Virus record (IMG/VR): IMGVR_UViG_3300049811_000134
Location: 1 to 30,215 of that record
Strand: one strand, 5' to 3'
Length of the DNA: 30,215 nucleotides
Origin: a virus
The position numbers and the translations under genes are program-made. A model generated the notes under the pieces. That model did no database searches, was not told where the DNA came from, and worked only from the letters and a program-made list of their open reading frames with translations. Of this stretch, positions 3 to 5,776 are shown piece by piece (position 1 is the stretch's first letter; each line of letters starts with the position of its first letter).

Positions 3-86
3 GGCGAAGTCACCGGAGGCTCCAGCGATGGCAGCGCCGACTTCCTGGCCGAGATGGACGCTGCGGCGGCCGGGGGTGCGCAATGA
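3..86 (+). CDS. C-terminal end of an unidentified phage protein (partial)
   Basis: An open frame enters from the left edge and stops at a TGA that overlaps the ATG of the next gene (ATGA). The visible 27 residues are Gly-, Ser- and Ala-rich and end in AAGGAQ. The tight overlap says it is the upstream member of the same plus-strand operon. Nothing in the fragment identifies its function. Confidence 0.6.
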   Translation, partial: GEVTGGSSDGSADFLAEMDAAAAGGAQ

Positions 87-328
87 CCGCACCGACCCGC
101 ATCTACCTGGTGAGCAACACCGCGGCCGATGTCAACGCCGACACCGGCAAGCCCCACGCGCGCCTGGTGCGCGCCCCGAACGCCGCGCAGGCGCTGCGGC
201 ACGTCGCGGCCGACACGCTGCTGGTCGAGGTCGCCAGCCAGGACAAGCTGGTCGAGCTGGTGGCCGCTGGCGTCAAGGTCGAGACCAGCGGGCGTGCGGG
301 CGAGCTGGCGCAGATGGCGCTGCTGTGA
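83..328 (+). CDS. Small conserved phage protein, function unknown
   Basis: This is an 81-residue protein starting on the ATG that overlaps the previous stop. It opens with a short strand-like segment (RIYLVSN), then a stretch resembling small Burkholderiales phage proteins in which an RLVRA motif is followed by a helix with QALRHVA and a VASQDKLVEL segment. That resemblance is from memory of similar phage proteins and has no functional meaning attached. It ends at a TGA overlapping a GTG start (GTGA), so it is translationally coupled on both sides. No membrane segment or enzyme motif is visible. Confidence 0.7.
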   Translation: MTAPTRIYLVSNTAADVNADTGKPHARLVRAPNAAQALRHVAADTLLVEVASQDKLVELVAAGVKVETSGRAGELAQMALL

Positions 329-495
329 GCGCCGGCCGCGTGTCGCACTGGCGGCAAGACCGCACCAAGGCCGCACGCCAGGTCGAGCTCGCCCGCAGCT
401 ACGGCGTCGACCCGGCGCAGCTGGCGCTCAATCTGCAGGCCGACGCCGACACCGCCGATGCCGATGCAGAGGCCTGCGAGGCGGCCGAGGCATGA
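325..495 (+). CDS. Very small phage protein (56 residues), function unknown
   Basis: The start is the GTG at 325 that overlaps the preceding TGA; the frame is open further upstream, but coupling favours this start. The protein has a basic N-terminal half (RVSHWRQDRTKAARQ) and a strongly acidic, Ala/Asp-rich C-terminal half. The stop overlaps the ATG of the next gene (ATGA). It might be a small DNA-binding or regulatory protein from the basic segment, but this is a guess; no known fold is recognised. Confidence 0.6.
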   Translation: MSAGRVSHWRQDRTKAARQVELARSYGVDPAQLALNLQADADTADADAEACEAAEA

Positions 496-1019
496 GCCGC
501 AAGCGCTGCCACCGCCGCGTGTGGGTGCCGCAGCCACCGCGCGGCCTGCGGCCCAAGCTCAGCCGCGACCAGGTCACGGACCTGGCGCTGGCGCACATCG
601 TCAACCTGGACGACATTGCCCGCGGCCAGGCCACCGCAGACACGCTCTGGCAGACCGTGGGCGGCGTGCTCACCTGGTCGCGCGTCGCCGCGCTGCGCGG
701 CGAGCTGGTGGCCGAGATGACCGAGCAACTCGACGTCCTGACCAGCGTGGTGGAGCGCTACCGCCGCACCGGCCGCGTGGGCTTCAGCGGCACCGAGTAC
801 CAGCTGGCCAAGCGCGGCGTCCAGCTCATGGACGACCTGGCCGAGCGCGTGGACCGCGCCACCGCCACCGCGGCGGCAGATTGGGCTGAGGCGCGGGTCA
901 ACGCGTGGGCGGCGCAGTGCAGCGAGGTGGCGGTATGCGCGCCGCTTAGGTGGCATGTGACACCCAACGAAAAGGGTAACCGGCCTGCGCAGGCCGAAGG
1001 CCGTAGCGGGTCCGGTTGA
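492..1019 (+). CDS. Phage conserved protein whose C-terminus runs into the attC array
   Basis: The ATG at 492 overlaps the previous stop, giving 175 residues. The body (about residues 1-148) resembles small phage proteins of Burkholderiales: a basic N-terminus, then GLRPKLSRDQVTDLALAHIVNLD, a VGGVLTWSRVA segment and a C-terminal helix with AAADWAEARVNAWA. The last roughly 20 codons lie inside the first attC-like repeat (962-1033) and read as low-complexity NEKGNRPAQAEGRSGSG. I infer that the original stop was lost, or the tail replaced, when the cassette array joined the phage genome. Function is unknown. It is the last phage gene of the plus-strand unit. Confidence 0.7.
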   Translation: MSRKRCHRRVWVPQPPRGLRPKLSRDQVTDLALAHIVNLDDIARGQATADTLWQTVGGVLTWSRVAALRGELVAEMTEQLDVLTSVVERYRRTGRVGFSGTEYQLAKRGVQLMDDLAERVDRATATAAADWAEARVNAWAAQCSEVAVCAPLRWHVTPNEKGNRPAQAEGRSGSG

Positions 1020-1033
1020 CCCGCCTGTTCGGC
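962..1033 (+). other. attC-like site a (left edge of array, degenerate R' box)
   Basis: R'' is ACCCAAC at 962-968. The right end has TTGACC, five bases, then GTTCGGC at 1027-1033, matching the spacing of TTGACC-GAGGA-GTTAGGC in site b but with one base off the GTTRRRY consensus. Internal AACCGG/CCGGTT arms and a GGCCTGCGCAGGCC palindrome give secondary structure. It overlaps the 3' end of the phage gene at 492-1019. Confidence 0.65.
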
Positions 1034-1059
1034 CTCACCTGGCCGAAGCGAGAGGACTG

Positions 1060-1401
1060 ATGAACACTTACGACACCGACGACCGCCGCCTGAACGTGGG
1101 CACCTTTTGGGGCAACCTGCGCGCCGTGCTGCGCCGCTGGATGGACCGCGAGCGCGAGCTGGTGAGCCTGCGCAACGCCGTGGGCATGATGAGCGAGGCC
1201 CGCCGCGCCGACGCCGCCGAGTGGCACGACATGCGCGAACTGAACCGCGAGATGCGTGCCGACGCGCTGCGGCTGCGCTGGCTAGCCGACGACCACGCCG
1301 ACCCGGAGACGTGCGAGCGCGTGCGCTCAATCTGTCAGAGCCTGCCGACGCGCAGCATCAGCGGCGTGCGCCTGGACATTGACGCGGCGATGCGCCCGTG
1401 A
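1060..1401 (+). CDS. Cassette 1: phage-like protein, function unknown
   Basis: This 113-residue protein begins at an ATG preceded by GAGAGGA. The N-terminal half is helical and charged (RRWMDRERELVSLRNAVG), compatible with a short coiled coil. The C-terminal half (RLRWLADDHADPETCERVRSIC, then LDIDAAM) resembles small phage proteins I have seen in proteobacterial prophages, which have no assigned function. The TGA stop lies just before the R'' box of attC b. Its 5' leader shares the pattern GGCCTCA..CCT..CCGAAGCGAGA with cassette 6, suggesting a common origin of cassette 5' ends. Confidence 0.75.
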   Translation: MNTYDTDDRRLNVGTFWGNLRAVLRRWMDRERELVSLRNAVGMMSEARRADAAEWHDMRELNREMRADALRLRWLADDHADPETCERVRSICQSLPTRSISGVRLDIDAAMRP

Positions 1402-1402
1402 G

Positions 1403-1506
1403 GCCTAACGTTCGAGGTAACGCGCCCACAAGGGCCGAGGAGATGCACGATGAACAGCACTGAGCAGGCCGGCCCTTGTGGGTCGCCGTTGACCGAGGAG
1501 TTAGGC
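1403..1506 (+). other. attC-like site b
   Basis: R'' is GCCTAAC (1403-1409) with L'' region TTCGAGGTAA. L' is TTGACCGAGGA, followed by R' GTTAGGC (1500-1506). A perfect 12-bp internal stem pairs 1425-1436 with 1471-1482. The 34-nt loop contains GAGGAG and an ATG at 1450 that reads through R' into cassette 2. Confidence 0.9.
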
Positions 1507-1815
1507 GCGTGGGTGCCGACTGCAGACACAGCACGCCTGCCACCGTTTGACGTGCCGGTGTGGGTGTACGAAGACGGCTACTGCTACATCGCGTGCCGAG
1601 CCGACGACAGTGACGGATGGTTGTGGGCAAAGTGCTACACGCTGCCGTACTTGGACAAGGCCGGGCGCTGGCAGACGGTGGACGCCGAGATTGACGACGA
1701 ATACCTGCCGACGCTGTGGCAGCCGCTGCCGGAGCCGCCGCGCTACAACCAAGCCGCCCTAGACGCTGCCAAGCTCGAAGCCGCCGCGATGTTTGCGGAC
1801 CTGCGGGTGGAGTGA
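1450..1815 (+). CDS. Cassette 2: DUF551-type protein
   Basis: The protein has 121 residues if started at the ATG at 1450, which has a good GAGGAG Shine-Dalgarno but lies inside attC b. A GTG at 1513, just after R', would give about 100 residues but has no ribosome-binding site. The core has LPPFDVPVWVYEDG early, then GRWQTVD, and ends LWQPLPEPP. That WxPLPEPP ending, after a VPVxVY strand, is the signature of DUF551 (PF04448-type) proteins, small proteins common in phages and prophages and of unknown function. It is followed at eight bases by the collapsed attC c. Confidence 0.75.
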   Translation: MNSTEQAGPCGSPLTEELGAWVPTADTARLPPFDVPVWVYEDGYCYIACRADDSDGWLWAKCYTLPYLDKAGRWQTVDAEIDDEYLPTLWQPLPEPPRYNQAALDAAKLEAAAMFADLRVE

Positions 1816-1822
1816 CACAAGC

Positions 1823-1841
1823 GCCTAACGACCAGTTAGGC
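1823..1841 (+). other. attC-like site c, collapsed to R''-R' hairpin
   Basis: The sequence is GCCTAAC, five bases, GTTAGGC: a perfect 7-bp stem with a 5-nt loop. It occupies the position of an attC between two cassette ORFs but has lost L'', L' and the variable terminal structure. I infer a deletion by replication slippage across the folded site. It is unlikely to be a normal integrase substrate. Confidence 0.75.
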
Positions 1842-1848
1842 CCTGGCT

Positions 1849-1904
1849 CCGAAGCGAAGTAGTGCAACCGTACTAGGACTAAACGACGTGGATAAGCAAA
1901 AACT
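1849..1904 (+). repeat. 56-bp cassette leader repeat, copy 1
   Basis: This copy is identical to 3938-3993 except for one AG/GA swap; the right-hand 45 bases are perfectly conserved. It begins CCGAAGCGA, contains GTACTAGGACTAAAC and includes the GTG start and first codons of the cassette-3 ORF. It is AT-richer than its surroundings, so it could hold a promoter or translation signal, although no convincing -35 box is visible. Confidence 0.85.
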
Positions 1905-2331
1905 GGAAGATGCGCGGCAGCTTGCGATGAGCATGACCTCGCACCCCGTGGCCTTCGGGACCATTGAACACACGGAGCGGGCCGGCGAGTTGCTGGGCTT
2001 GCTGTGGCAGGAAGTGCTGCGGCTTGAGCGCGACCTGAAGGACGCGCTGGAGCCGCAGAGCCCGAACACCGCTGACGGCCCCGTGGCGCTGGAGCTTTCT
2101 TGGGTGCCGCTGAACAAGCGCGACCTGAACTGGCACGCGCACGCGACCGTGCAACTGCGGTCCATGCACGCAGCACTGAACGCAGCCGAGAAGACCCCGC
2201 GCGACCCGCTGGAGATTGAGGAACTGTGGGACGAGGCGAACGAGCTGGCGACAGGCGAAGGCGCGGAACCGCACGAGTTGTTTGCGCGCCTGCTGGAGCG
2301 CGCGCACGGGATTGGAGTTGAGCATGGCTGA
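1888..2331 (+). CDS. Cassette 3: unknown protein, paralogue of cassette 6
   Basis: This 147-residue protein starts at a GTG fixed by the conserved 56-bp leader; stops close the frame upstream, and AGGA lies about 10 bases before the start. The first 34 residues match cassette 6 at 24 positions (MDKQKL, ARQLA, SHPVA, TI-H-E-AG), after which the two proteins diverge into helical, charged sequence. The C-terminal part (EIEELWDEANELATGE, then AHELF-like helices) is acidic. No known domain is recognised. The stop overlaps the ATG of the next ORF by eight bases, so this is a two-gene cassette. Confidence 0.75.
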   Translation: MDKQKLEDARQLAMSMTSHPVAFGTIEHTERAGELLGLLWQEVLRLERDLKDALEPQSPNTADGPVALELSWVPLNKRDLNWHAHATVQLRSMHAALNAAEKTPRDPLEIEELWDEANELATGEGAEPHELFARLLERAHGIGVEHG

Positions 2332-2602
2332 CGGGAACATCACGGTGGAAGTGAGCACACAGGCGGCGCAGGCCGAGCTACAACGCCTGCGCGCCGACAA
2401 CGCAGCCCTAAGACGCGAGGCGCACGCATGGTGGGAAGCCGCACGCAATGCGACCAAAGCCGAAACCGAGCGCTGCGCGCTGGTGGCCGCACTGCACAGC
2501 CAGTACCCCGTGACGACGGACTACGACAGGGGCTACGCGAAGGCGCGCGCGGATGCTGCGGCGGCGATTCGCTTGGGGCCTAACGTTCGAGGTAATGCGT
2601 GA
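2324..2602 (+). CDS. Cassette 3, second gene: small coiled-coil protein
   Basis: The ATG at 2324 lies inside the end of the preceding ORF, a coupled arrangement. The 92-residue protein has a helical N-terminal half with a heptad-like AELQRLRADNAALRREAHAW segment (coiled coil likely), and then DYDRGYAKARADAAAAI, a pattern seen in many small phage proteins of unknown function. The last eight codons and stop lie within attC d. It probably oligomerises through the coiled coil; beyond that nothing can be said. Confidence 0.65.
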   Translation: MADGNITVEVSTQAAQAELQRLRADNAALRREAHAWWEAARNATKAETERCALVAALHSQYPVTTDYDRGYAKARADAAAAIRLGPNVRGNA

Positions 2603-2679
2603 CACACGGCGCTGACCAAGCATGCAAAACGCGACACGGCAACCCGCCGTGTGGCATCGCCTTGACCGAGGAGTTAGGG
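2578..2679 (+). other. attC-like site d
   Basis: R'' is GCCTAAC (2578-2584) with L'' TTCGAGGTAA identical to site b. L' is TTGACCGAGGA, followed by GTTAGGG (2673-2679); the last base departs from the R' consensus. A 9-bp internal stem pairs 2603-2611 with 2645-2653. Confidence 0.88.
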
Positions 2680-2701
2680 CTCTTGTTGGAGTGGGACTTG
2701 T

Positions 2702-3397
2702 ATGCCTGAGAAGGTGGTGATCGGAGGCGCGACACTTTGGCACGCCAACTGCCTGGAGGTGCTGCCAGGCTTGCCGAAGCACGACTTGCTGTGCACGGAC
2801 CCGCCTTACGGGATTGGTGCAGGCGCGGCCAACTTTCGCAGCGGCACGCGGAAGAACGACCCAACGTACACCTACGGCGAGTGGGACGCTGAGCCGCCAA
2901 AGCGCTGGCTGCTGGACATGATGCTGGACCATGCAAGCGCGGCGATTGTGTGGGGCGGCAACTACTTTGGCTTGCCGGCTAGCCGCTGCTGGCTGGTGTG
3001 GGACAAGTGCACCGGCGACAACAGCTACGCCGACGCCGAACTGGCCTGGACGAACATTGACGCCACCGTGCGCGTGCTGAAGCACCCCTGGAGTGGCGCC
3101 AACGCGAAAGAGCGCGGCGAGGAAAGGCTGCACCCTACACAGAAGCCGCTGCGCGTGATGGGCTGGAGCCTTGAGCGCGTGGCTGGCGCCAGGACAGTGT
3201 TGGACCCGTTCATGGGCAGCGGCACGACTGGCGTTGCCTGCATGCAGCTAGGCCGCGAGTTCACTGGCATAGAGCGTGAACGCCGGTACTTTGACATAGC
3301 GTGCGAGCGGATACAGCGCGCACACGATCAGGGCGTGCTGCTGCCGCCAGAAACTGCTGGCACGCCACAACAGGCGGGGCTGGCGCTAGAGCCCTAA
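2702..3397 (+). CDS. Cassette 4: beta-class DNA methyltransferase
   Basis: The protein has 231 residues. Catalytic motif IV, TDPPYG, is at residues 32-37; HPTQKP is at 144-149; and the S-adenosylmethionine-binding motif I, DPFMGSGTTG, is at 168-177. Motif IV before motif I is the order of beta-class amino-methyltransferases (N6-adenine or N4-cytosine, PF01555). DPPY favours adenine, but the base and target sequence cannot be read. The length is short but complete for the stand-alone phage type. No restriction endonuclease is adjacent, so it is an orphan, plausibly protecting phage DNA from host restriction or marking it. The start has GGAG upstream, and the TAA stop is the one inside the R'' box of attC e. 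Confidence 0.93.
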   Translation: MPEKVVIGGATLWHANCLEVLPGLPKHDLLCTDPPYGIGAGAANFRSGTRKNDPTYTYGEWDAEPPKRWLLDMMLDHASAAIVWGGNYFGLPASRCWLVWDKCTGDNSYADAELAWTNIDATVRVLKHPWSGANAKERGEERLHPTQKPLRVMGWSLERVAGARTVLDPFMGSGTTGVACMQLGREFTGIERERRYFDIACERIQRAHDQGVLLPPETAGTPQQAGLALEP

Positions 3398-3451
3398 CGC
3401 TACAGCTCACCTGCCGGCCGTAGGCCGGTCAGGTGCAGCGAGGGGTTAGGC
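3392..3451 (+). other. attC-like site e
   Basis: This is a classical 60-bp site: CCCTAAC (3392-3398; first base off the RYYYAAC consensus) to GTTAGGC (3445-3451). The centre is a nearly perfect stem, CACCTG-CCGGCC pairing with GGCCGG-CAGGTG, with one unpaired T and a 3-base loop. The TAA in R'' is the methyltransferase stop. Confidence 0.88.
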
Positions 3452-3488
3452 GCGTGCCCCGATTCACGCGCCAATGGTGGAGAGCCAC

Positions 3489-3848
3489 ATGGGAACGAGA
3501 GCAGATTTCTACATCGGTCGCGGCCAGGATGCCGAGTGGCTGGGTTCGGTGGCCTGGGACGGCTACGAATGGGAAGCCGACGACAGCGACCTGATGCAAG
3601 CGAAGACGGCCGACGAGTTCCGCGCAGCGGTGGCCGCCATCGAGGCCGAGCGCGACGACTTCACCGCGCCCGCCGAGGGCTGGCCTTGGCCCTGGGACGA
3701 CAGCAACACGACGGACTACGCCTACGTGTTCCACGACGGCGCGGTGACGATCCCGGACGGCCGCGTGGACTGGCTGCCCAACATGGCTGCCCGCAAGAAC
3801 GTGCAGTGGGGCAGTAAGAAGGGCGGCATTCTGGTGGTGGGCGGATAA
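3489..3848 (+). CDS. Cassette 5: small acidic protein, function unknown
   Basis: The ATG at 3489 is chosen because GGAGAG precedes it at good spacing; an in-frame ATG at 3474 would add five residues without a clear ribosome site. The 119-residue protein begins MGTRADFYIGRG, continues AEWLGSVAWDGYEW, and has a GWPWPWDDS motif followed by TDYAYVFHDGAV. I believe proteins with this MGTRADFY-GRG/AWDGY/WPWPW pattern occur in phages and mobile elements, but no function is known to me. It is rich in Asp, Glu and Trp, and such acidic proteins sometimes mimic DNA, but this is only a thought. Confidence 0.8.
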   Translation: MGTRADFYIGRGQDAEWLGSVAWDGYEWEADDSDLMQAKTADEFRAAVAAIEAERDDFTAPAEGWPWPWDDSNTTDYAYVFHDGAVTIPDGRVDWLPNMAARKNVQWGSKKGGILVVGG

Positions 3849-3850
3849 GC

Positions 3851-3927
3851 GCCTAACGCCCGAGTTCAGCCGCCCACGGAGGGCGCGCAGCGGCCGTAGT
3901 GGGTCGCGCTGGAACGAAGTGTTAGGC
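3851..3927 (+). other. attC-like site f (closest to classical type)
   Basis: GCCTAAC (3851-3857) is followed by GCCCGAGTTCAGC. The right end is GGAACGAAGT-GTTAGGC (3921-3927). These are the textbook L'' and L'-R' patterns of mobile integron cassettes. The site is 77 bp and starts two bases after the cassette-5 stop. Confidence 0.93.
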
Positions 3928-3937
3928 CTCAACCTAC

Positions 3938-3993
3938 CCGAAGCGAGATAGTGCAACCGTACTAGGACTAAACGACGTGGATAAGCAAAAACT
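3938..3993 (+). repeat. 56-bp cassette leader repeat, copy 2
   Basis: This is the second copy of the leader at 1849-1904, with the same spacing to a GTG start. Its 5' neighbour GTTAGGCCTCAACCT also resembles the start of cassette 1 (GTTCGGCCTCACCT, then CCGAAGCGAGA at 1043). Confidence 0.85.
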
Positions 3994-4330
3994 CGATGAA
4001 GCGCGGCAGTTGGCGCACAGCATGATTTCGCACCCGGTGGCCTACAGCACGATTGACCATGTGGAGAAGGCCGGCGACACGATAGTGGACATGCTGTCTG
4101 AACGCGTGGTGCTGGTGGCCCAGGTCAATGCCTTGCGGGCCGCGCTGGCGAAGGTGCTGGACGCTGGCAACCGTGAGGCGGCGGCCACCATGAGCTGGCA
4201 AAACGCCCGCGAGAACTTCAGCGACAGCAGCCACGAGCGCAAAGCACACGAGCGCGCCATGCTGGCCGCCAGCGAGGCCGAACGCGAGGCCCACGTACTG
4301 CTGGCAACGCTGAAGCGTATTGGGGCCTAA
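3977..4330 (+). CDS. Cassette 6: unknown protein, paralogue of cassette 3
   Basis: This 117-residue protein starts at the GTG in the shared leader. The N-terminal 34 residues match cassette 3 (24 identical), and the remainder is different and strongly helical (LVAQVNALRAALAKVLDAGN, then ERKAHERAMLAASEAEREAH), likely a coiled coil. The conserved head with a variable tail suggests a common functional module with exchanged C-termini. The TAA stop is the one embedded in the R'' box of attC g. No known domain is recognised. Confidence 0.75.
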   Translation: MDKQKLDEARQLAHSMISHPVAYSTIDHVEKAGDTIVDMLSERVVLVAQVNALRAALAKVLDAGNREAAATMSWQNARENFSDSSHERKAHERAMLAASEAEREAHVLLATLKRIGA

Positions 4331-4438
4331 CACCCCAGGTAACTTGCCCGCCACGCGCGGGCGGAAGGCGTGACATGGAAGCTGACAAGGTGGCGCCCAC
4401 AGGCGCCGTGGCGGGTCAAGTTGAACGAGGGGTTGGGC
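4325..4438 (+). other. attC-like site g
   Basis: R'' is GCCTAAC (4325-4331). The right end is GTTGAACGAGGG-GTTGGGC (4432-4438), a good L'-R' pair. CCGCCACGCG and GGCGCCCAC...GTGGCGGG segments give internal pairing. The variable region holds GGAAGG and an ATG at 4375 that is open through R' into cassette 7. Confidence 0.88.
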
Positions 4439-4653
4439 CGCTTGCTGGGCCGAACCCGCGCCGCATGCTGCGCGCCGCGCGACTGTGCGAGGAACTTGGA
4501 CACGGCGGCGACACGCTGGCGGCGTTGGAGCACATGAAACGCATGGAAACCGCGCTAAAGGTGCTGCACATATGGGCTGCATTCCCGCCGCTGGACGGGC
4601 GCCAAGTGCGCGAGCTTTGTGCCCGAGCGCTTAAAGCGGATGAAGCGGCCTAA
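4375..4653 (+). CDS. Cassette 7: small helical protein, function unknown
   Basis: The ATG at 4375 has a GGAAGG ribosome site six bases upstream but lies inside attC g, giving 92 residues whose first 20 or so come from the recombination site. The next in-frame ATG, at 4465 (62 residues), has no Shine-Dalgarno. The part beyond 4465 is helical: MLRAARLCEELGHGGD, LAALEHMKRMETAL, then VRELCARALKADEAA. The TAA stop is inside the R'' box of attC h. No family is recognised. Confidence 0.6.
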   Translation: MEADKVAPTGAVAGQVERGVGPLAGPNPRRMLRAARLCEELGHGGDTLAALEHMKRMETALKVLHIWAAFPPLDGRQVRELCARALKADEAA

Positions 4654-4746
4654 CGTGCTGGTGAGCCGACAAGGAGGCGCTGATGAGTGACCGAAGCGAG
4701 ACGAAGCCGCCCGCCGACGAAGGTCGGCTCGACCGGCGTGTTAGGC
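4648..4746 (+). other. attC-like site h
   Basis: GCCTAAC (4648-4654) to GTTAGGC (4740-4746), 99 bp. An internal 8-bp stem pairs GAGCCGAC (4663-4670) with GTCGGCTC (4723-4730). The loop carries AAGGAGG and an ATG at 4683 that is open through R'. CCGAAGCGA, the 9-mer of the cassette leaders, also occurs here at 4691. Confidence 0.85.
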
Positions 4747-4874
4747 GCGATGCGGAGACGGACGAGCGCCGGGAAGCGCAGCGCAAGCGGCTGGCCGAGC
4801 TGTTGCAAGGCCGCAAGCAGACGCCGCTGAAGTGGAACGAGTTTGGCAACTATCCGCTGACGGAGATGGAATGA
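4683..4874 (+). CDS. Cassette 8, first gene: small basic protein starting inside attC h
   Basis: This 63-residue ORF has a strong AAGGAGG Shine-Dalgarno and an ATG at 4683, both in the loop of attC h. Downstream of R' there is no in-frame ATG or GTG before the last residue, so if the ORF is translated this start is the obvious one. The protein is highly charged (RLDRRVRRDAETDERREAQRKRLAELLQGRKQ) and ends PLTEME. The stop overlaps the next ATG (ATGA), supporting real translation and coupling. No domain is recognised. Confidence 0.55.
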   Translation: MSDRSETKPPADEGRLDRRVRRDAETDERREAQRKRLAELLQGRKQTPLKWNEFGNYPLTEME

Positions 4875-5122
4875 CGCGCGCCGCCTGGGGCTCTCGACGC
4901 GATGCGGTGCTGGCATACCTAGCCGAGCCGCACACGAAGCAGGATCTACTGAAGTGGGGCGGCCCGCCGGCGCTGCATTGCGCATGGTGGCTGAAGAAGA
5001 CTGGCCGCGTGGAGTGCCGCCGCGTATCGCACTACGTGTGGCTGTGGCAGGCAACCGTTGAGCCGGCCACGAAGCCGAGCAACGATGGTGGCGCCGCACT
5101 GATGGCAGCGTGGAGCGCCTAA
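4871..5122 (+). CDS. Cassette 8, second gene: small winged-helix-like protein, function unknown
   Basis: The ATG at 4871 overlaps the preceding TGA. The protein has 83 residues. RRDAVLAYLAEPHTKQDLLKWGGPPALHCAWWLKKTGRVECRRVSHYVWLWQ has the look of a small winged-helix fold: helix, helix, recognition helix ending in LKKTGRV, then two strands. This is an inference from pattern only, and DNA binding is therefore possible but unproven. The TAA stop is inside the R'' box of the last attC. Confidence 0.65.
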   Translation: MTRAAWGSRRDAVLAYLAEPHTKQDLLKWGGPPALHCAWWLKKTGRVECRRVSHYVWLWQATVEPATKPSNDGGAALMAAWSA

Positions 5123-5187
5123 CTCGTCGCTACGCGAACCGTGAAAAGTCGCCGCGCTAACCGTCGCCCATCGCGCAGCCGTTGGGC
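5117..5187 (+). other. attC-like site i (right edge of array)
   Basis: R'' GCCTAAC (5117-5123) is clear and carries the stop of the preceding ORF. The best right end is GTTGGGC at 5181-5187, which fits GTTRRRY, but the internal stem is weak, so the site may be truncated or diverged where array and phage DNA meet. The following 54 bases (5188-5241) up to the Rz1 stop hold no gene and no clear terminator. Confidence 0.6.
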
Positions 5188-5241
5188 GCACCTCAACACG
5201 CCCGATGCGCTGCGTCGGCGCCGCGCGGAGGCCAGCGCGCC

Positions 5242-5526
5242 CTACCGCGGCCACGCCCCCACAAGCCCCCGATGCCGCGCCCGGCACTCCGCCGCCGCCG
5301 CCTCGCGCTGGGCCACGATGTCGAGCACGACGCTGACGGGCAGATCGCCGGGCGGGTAGTCCGGCCCCGGCCAGCACGGCGCGGCTAGGCTCGCGGGCGG
5401 CGGGTCAATCACCGGCCGGATCGGCGCCGGCGTCGCGCAGGCGGTCAACAGCGGCAGCAGGCACCAGCACGTCACCCACGGCCACCGGAGCGCCTGTAGG
5501 GCACGCCAGGGGCCGGCGCAGAGCAT
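5242..5526 (-). CDS. Outer-membrane spanin lipoprotein (Rz1-like)
   Basis: The protein has 94 residues from the ATG at 5526. A hydrophobic signal (WVTCWCLLPLLTAC) ends in a lipobox with the lipidated Cys at residue 30, followed by a proline-rich stretch (PAPIRPVIDPPPASL) typical of Rz1 outer-membrane spanin subunits. It starts inside the Rz gene in another frame and extends beyond its end, a common overlapped spanin arrangement. With the Rz partner it would span the periplasm and fuse the inner and outer membranes at the last step of lysis. It is the most distal gene of the minus-strand late unit and borders the cassette array. Confidence 0.88.
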   Translation of the reverse strand: MLCAGPWRALQALRWPWVTCWCLLPLLTACATPAPIRPVIDPPPASLAAPCWPGPDYPPGDLPVSVVLDIVAQREAAAAECRARHRGLVGAWPR

Positions 5527-5776
5527 CAGCGAGGTCACGGCGCAGCCCCGGCAGCCGGGCCTCGATGCGCCGGCGCTGCGCCTCGTGGCGCGTGGCCGCG
5601 GCCTGGGCCAGTCGCTGAGCCTCGGCGCGCAGCTCGGCCGCCTGGCGCTCGCGCTGCAGCTCGGCGACATCCCAGCGGGCCTGCACCCGGCCGGCGCCCA
5701 GGTGCCAGCCGCCCGCGGCGGCCGCCAGCAGCAGGGCCAGCGCGGCGGCGTAGGGCCACAGGCGCAGCCACGTCAC
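5405..5776 (-). CDS. Inner-membrane spanin (Rz-like)
   Basis: The GTG at 5776 overlaps the endolysin stop (GTGA), giving 123 residues; a GTG at 5797 is less likely. A single N-terminal transmembrane segment (LWPYAAALALLLAAAAGGWHLG) is followed by a long helical periplasmic domain rich in Arg, Glu, Gln and Ala (residues about 30-90), as in Rz proteins. The position just after the endolysin and the embedded lipoprotein gene confirm the assignment. The product acts in the inner membrane with the Rz1 partner to disrupt the outer membrane. Confidence 0.88.
   Translation of the reverse strand: MTWLRLWPYAAALALLLAAAAGGWHLGAGRVQARWDVAELQRERQAAELRAEAQRLAQAAATRHEAQRRRIEARLPGLRRDLADALRRPLACPTGAPVAVGDVLVPAAAVDRLRDAGADPAGD

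Follow-up and report, generated by a model that had tools for sequence, protein, structure and literature searches.

Integron cassettes are usually described as a gene followed by its attC site, and they are expressed from the integron promoter. Within attC, the variable terminal structure varies freely, and the arms carry the signals for recombination. According to the accessible part of Qi et al. 2023 (PMC9892861), attC arrays also occur in phages, some of them together with intI; they include DNA methyltransferase cassettes, and IntI1 recombines the sites. The examples in this part of the paper are of typical or mixed orientation, and it describes neither arrays in which all genes are reversed relative to attC nor start codons within attC. 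The 17 CALINs it presents come from named phages, whereas the attC family described below found no match in the named-phage collection.

Two further systems invite comparison. In the attI1 site of class 1 integrons, the short separate leader ORF-11 recruits ribosomes by coupling (PMC8876359). Of the known arrangements this comes closest to the phage sites, in that start signals within a recombination site would aid a cassette gene, but ORF-11 lies in attI instead of attC, is a short, separate and coupled ORF, and precedes a cassette of normal orientation. Cassette fusions, for example blaGES-1/aacA4, arise by loss of an attC (PMC4670013). There, as in the phage arrays, reading proceeds across or around an attC boundary, but the arms of the phage attCs are intact. 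Inverted phage arrays and translation starts in attC loops did not turn up in the literature searched, preprints and most subscription papers aside.

The Window and Its attC Sites

The stretch of DNA analyzed here (the window) comprises the 30,215 bp of an IMG/VR virus record and represents a fragment of a siphophage genome. Its minus strand carries late genes for terminase subunits (including TerL), portal, major head (capsid) protein, tape measure, tail fibre and endolysin. At approximately 960–5190 lies a cassette array whose plus-strand genes converge with these late genes:

962–1033, minus strand: attC a, the probable first site, degenerate (CCCAACG...GTTCGGC), placed by sequence inspection and inference
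1403–1506, minus strand: attC b, with its recombination box GCCTAA^C at 1403–1409; classical polarity on the minus strand
1438–1442, plus strand: Shine-Dalgarno motif (SD) AGGAG in the loop of attC b
1450–1815, plus strand: ORF b, 121 aa, DUF551-like, starting in attC b
1823–1841, no strand assigned: attC remnant c, 19 bp, R boxes only
2578–2679, minus strand: attC d, with a loop ATG but neither SD nor long ORF
2702–3397, plus strand: DNA methyltransferase gene, starting 22 nt past the box of attC d
3392–3451, minus strand: attC e; the methyltransferase ORF (end 3397) takes its stop codon from the left box, CCCTAA
3851–3927, minus strand: attC f, with a short loop and no start
3977–4330: ORF whose TAA is in the left box of attC g
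4325–4438, minus strand: attC g, with AAGG at 4365–4368 and ATG at 4375 in the loop
4375–4653, plus strand: ORF g, 92 aa, starting in attC g; its stop is the TAA of the attC h left box
4648–4746, minus strand: attC h, with AAGGAGG at 4671–4677 and ATG at 4683 in the loop
4683–4874, plus strand: ORF h, 63 aa, with its start in attC h; its stop codon and the start codon of the next ORF overlap (ATGA)
4871–5122, plus strand: second ORF of cassette h, ended by the TAA of the site i left box
5117–5187, no strand assigned: site i, the probable last attC-like site, with a weak score

Six of the sites show the imperfect inverted repeat of attC with R''/R' (RYYYAAC/GTTRRRY) and L boxes. A profile search for the integron integrase (TIGR02249) found none in the window, which is a fragment record. 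With six scored attCs, where at least two are needed, and no neighbouring intI within this fragment, the array belongs to the CALINs. A classical gene cassette consists of a promoterless ORF followed by an attC of the same direction; here, the gene comes after its own attC and runs in the opposite direction.

A DNA search of the array against named phages returned matches to the methyltransferase only, and a protein search found no relatives of the ORF at 4871–5122. Three phage loci that matched ORF g were dismissed as chance hits, since the similarity is of the low-complexity, arginine-rich kind and no attC is present at these loci.

The 19-bp remnant at 1823–1841 (GCCTAACGACCAGTTAGGC) contains both R boxes and no stem. 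In L111, a contig from a Rubrivivax MAG that has 612 bp in common with cassette c of the window at 90% identity, a full attC precedes the same body. Judging from this relative, the stem of remnant c has probably been deleted in the window, where two cassettes would now be fused. The same match hints at a Rubrivivax-like host for the phage. The bodies at 1842–2000 and 3928–4077 are 84% identical over their first ~140 nt, including the N-terminus MDKQKL, and diverge beyond that point, giving one 5' module with different 3' parts. Many phage attCs are followed, after the 3' box, by a loosely common stretch (CCT...CCGAAGCGA; for example, at 1842–1857 and 3928–3950 of the window). This stretch is present in cassettes with and without loop starts, and it reads PLxER in the loop-start ORFs.

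Related Arrays

To collect relatives, we searched for exact matches to the left box of sites b and d, which is conserved; these patterns are blind to gene direction and loop content. The yield was 6 + 98 viral and 119 genomic stretches, and among the latter are many large arrays from the chromosomes of Rubrivivax and other Burkholderiales. The survey took in about 100 IMG/VR loci that have this attC family. The attC finder and the collection scans were built on the motifs of this one family. The counts below refer to fragmentary contigs and to related, non-independent sites. Across 171 phage sites the attC arms are conserved while the loops vary.

The chromosomal integrons of Rubrivivax and other Burkholderiales use the same attC family, as judged by boxes and extrahelical bases, but their arrays mostly have the gene before its attC. 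The longest SD-preceded ORF between phage attCs lies on the reversed strand in 82 segments versus 5. In the chromosomal arrays the classical direction prevails, both for the longest SD-preceded ORF (146 vs 77) and for the longest ORF alone (169 vs 18). Several Rubrivivax loci (L012, L029, L031, L034 and others) are very large chromosomal arrays with highly uniform attCs of ~126–132 nt.

Polarity of the Sites

To assign polarity we used the L-box motifs of class 1 attCs, which are asymmetric, and gave each site a score in either orientation; sites from R100 and pEGY1 were the controls. On the gene strand these controls scored 15 in the classical versus 8–9 in the reversed orientation; on the plus strand, the window sites scored 7–9 classical versus 11–15 reversed. 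The extrahelical bases lie on the plus-strand 3' arm, the classical R''/L'' arm, in five window sites versus none, with one tie. They occupy the R''/L'' arm in 136 phage sites versus 2, in 319 chromosomal sites versus 3, and in both distinct class 1 controls (2 vs 0). Hence, the window sites have the extrahelical bases of an attC, with a polarity opposite to that of the genes. Furthermore, in phage records that contain IntI, the sites stand in canonical polarity relative to intI. These three independent lines (box motifs, extrahelical bases and polarity relative to intI) therefore show that the window attCs are reversed on the plus strand. The classical R' is the left (5') box, which is cut at GCCTAA^C, and not GTTAGGC. 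The sequence-only reading of this DNA had taken the 3' box GTTAGGC as R'. Its observation that ORFs start within attC stands, but the assignment of the cut does not.

The Mobile Unit

Cassette junctions were read from the loci of five relatives (L161, L179, L182, L201 and L215). A 1156-bp body is identical in L179, L182 and L215 and has three unrelated attCs downstream. L161 and L201 have an identical body in common; the attCs before it are 93% identical, and the neighbours further upstream are unrelated. The order in L182 is attC1-body-attC2; L215 has a single attC at this place, which combines the left flank of L182 attC1 with the distinguishing right-hand bases (right half) of attC2. Read from these sequences, the L182/L215 pair is a natural instance of cassette gain or loss, with an apparent crossover to the left of the right box. 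A cut at the 3' box is therefore incompatible with the junction in L215. The junctions support a mobile unit that, on the gene strand, consists of an attC together with its own downstream ORF, and with such a unit the start codon would travel with its own gene. The junctions in these relatives would also fit recombination by IntI at R'. The earlier proposal that an interchangeable start codon is left with the upstream cassette is contradicted by the natural junctions as well as by the reversed polarity.

Among 76 informative segments, 38 ORFs end precisely at the TAA in the left box that follows and 17 end before it; 13 extend beyond the cut and end within the next attC, with tails like PNVRAK. 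Several ORF stops in these segments overlap or abut the next loop ATG. Four ORFs of the window stop at a box TAA (ends 3397, 4330, 4653 and 5122). From these positions, the swappable part would sometimes be a C-terminal tail, in a minority of ORFs, which is the mirror image of the exchangeable start proposed before.

Probable Translation Starts in attC Loops

ORFs b, g and h begin inside attC loops, at 1450, 4375 and 4683, and read through the 3' box, as had been recognized from the sequence alone. We could also confirm the SD motifs upstream of the three ATGs (AGGAG at 7 nt in b, AAGG at 6 nt in g and AAGGAGG at 5 nt in h) and the lack of any in-frame ATG or GTG in ORF h from the 3' box until residue 62. 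ORF g has an in-frame ATG past the 3' box, at 4465, without a clear SD. The distance from ATG to box is indeed 57 bases in g and h and different in b. The suggestion that this common frame is special did not hold up, since loop starts use both phase 0 (38) and phase 2 (34). The third frame is not used because it reads TAG in the GTTAGG box.

The DUF551 match of ORF b begins at residue 29, which corresponds to profile position 8, and because the first conserved tryptophan (W21) lies two codons past the 3' box, a start downstream of the box would lose this residue. Given a domain that starts at Trp-Val-Pro directly past the 3' box, the ORF b protein most likely begins inside attC. In an ORF from L198, position 1 of the MT-A70 profile falls ~8 residues past the box. 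Apart from MT-A70 and DUF551, a Pfam search of the loop-start ORFs found almost no domains.

For a wider survey, which the sequence-only reading had proposed, a loop start was defined as a loop ATG with SD and an ORF of at least 40 codons past the terminal box, in attCs of at least 85 nt. Phage attCs have such starts in 67 of 119 cases on the gene strand and in 2 of 117 on the opposite strand. Dinucleotide-shuffled phage loops gave 7.5 of 119, so that loop starts of this kind are far commoner than chance, contrary to a possibility that the same reading had raised itself. The chromosomal arrays of Rubrivivax and other Burkholderiales differ from the phage arrays in this respect, with loop starts at the rate of the shuffled loops, that is, at chance level (21/349 on the same strand, 0/349 on the other). 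The difference between phage and chromosomal sites corresponds to a Fisher value of 6e-30, calculated over related and therefore non-independent sites. The SD–ATG spacing is 5–8 nt in 55 of 61 cases, and none of the phage sites scanned that are shorter than 85 nt has a loop start. In the predicted mRNA, the probability of being unpaired is 0.70 for the ATG and 0.59 for the SD, compared to 0.36 for the whole attC and 0.23 for the arms.

Where homologous bodies can be compared, they keep the reading frame that begins at the loop ATG in 40 of 42 pairs (2 disagree), including 7 of 9 pairs with different box phase. The loop-start ORFs are each 60–210 codons long in all and stay in frame through the body; none of this matches a leader of the ORF-11 type, a short ORF that ends before the gene start. 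An in-frame ATG or GTG with SD at most 40 codons past the box is also present in 24 of 72 loop-start ORFs, and therefore a later start is possible in some of them.

A Model for the Phage Cassettes and Its Alternatives

It is very probable, in our judgment, that the window carries a phage-borne CALIN with genes opposite to their attCs, in which the loops of the longer sites are translation start regions and the cassettes are self-contained. On the gene strand each cassette would then consist of the cut (GCCTAA^C), the attC, the ORF and its stop. The attC arms, with R boxes, L boxes and extrahelical bases, would be retained for the integrase, and the variable loop of the longer sites would have taken up an SD and a start codon; phages may thus have used the free variation of the loop to place a translation start there. 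The polarity, the boundaries of the unit, the enrichment of loop starts and the conservation of their frame are read directly from the sequences. We infer that ribosomes start in the loop and translate through the 3' arm, which would add a leader of ~12–28 residues, into the body, often up to the TAA that the following attC has in its left box. For translation such a cassette would be complete in itself and could do without a promoter, being transcribed as part of a phage operon and moved by an IntI of either host or phage.

Integron cassettes would thus have a recurrent phage form of opposite polarity, whose recombination site also serves as a translation start. It would explain how cassettes are expressed inside a phage operon without Pc, and it would give the variable loop of attC a use. 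Cassette finders and gene callers that expect the usual order may mis-assign phage genes and their starts. The effect of gene direction relative to attC on recombination also becomes testable.

With a cut at the 3' box instead (G^TTAGGC as read along the gene strand), the loop start would belong to the upstream cassette and serve any inserted body. Close relatives among loop-start attCs that stand before unrelated bodies would fit this idea (attC g of the window and its counterpart in L206 are 83% identical, with a similar leader), as would the fact that the used frames are always open through the box. However, it is common in integrons for similar attCs to stand before different genes, and no exchange at the 3' box is required for this. 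Given that the polarity by motif and by extrahelical bases is at odds with such a cut, and that in the natural junctions, including L182/L215, the attC goes with the downstream body, we regard this explanation as very unlikely. It is improbable, too, that the loop ATGs are incidental or begin short leaders, with genes starting past the attC as in ordinary cassettes. This possibility draws on the 46 long phage attCs without a loop ORF, many of which have an SD and ATG 17–32 nt past the box, and on the coupling documented for ORF-11 of attI1 (PMC8876359). It does not account for the enrichment of loop starts over shuffled loops and chromosomal attCs, nor for loop ORFs that share the frame of the body over their whole length and conserve it, and domains that start at the box leave no space for a later start.

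The idea that the sites are attC-like phage repeats, such as terminators or regulatory hairpins, and not integron sites has next to no likelihood. The window lacks an integrase, and as mRNA the sites are predicted to form very stable hairpins (z −4.9 to −6.9), which may have an additional regulatory role. Yet, phage repeats would not be expected to display the full R/L box and extrahelical signature of IntI-bearing Rubrivivax arrays and class 1 sites, to adjoin IntI and attI, as the same arrays do in records G008, G061 and G069, or to take part in the gain or loss of a cassette at the predicted junction.

Phages with Their Own Integron

IntI scored above cutoff in four of the ~70 viral records tested. 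Two of them, G061 and G069, are clear phages with capsid or terminase, tail fibre and phage integrase. Both have IntI, an attI-like site and cassettes that face inward. G061 and G008 have the order intI, attI-like box and attCs of canonical polarity, and so does G069, judged by position; G061 and G008 thus contain complete integrons with intI, attI and attCs in canonical geometry, where attI is named by its position and its GTTAGGC junction only. In all three records the cassette genes share the strand of intI and point toward it. The first cassette gene of G061 stops at the TAA of the attI box, and that of G008 reads into attI. Loop-start cassettes are present in G008 and G053. The integron integrase is full-length in the temperate phages L248/L249 (IMG/VR G061, 29.8 kb) and L250/L251 (G069, 39 kb).

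We offer as a tentative and rather doubtful extension that phages of Burkholderiales hosts, and perhaps of others, keep an inverted-integron lineage of their own. In such a lineage cassettes would face intI, the loop would be the ribosome-binding and start region, and cassettes would circulate among phages rather than with chromosomal arrays. Transcription of the array could promote exchange because the exposed non-template strand is the recombinogenic bottom strand of attC.

Among published viruses, our finder, which is tuned to another attC family, found no attC sites in Rctr41k, M16-3 or TJE1. Shewanella phage M16-3, which like Rctr41k came from the IntI search of named phages, has its genes the usual way round. 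Virus Rctr41k (KX853513; L253), published from an enrichment culture, carries at 68–5678 a row of small genes that run toward an IntI-like integrase at its end, all on one strand, and this looks like the same backward layout.
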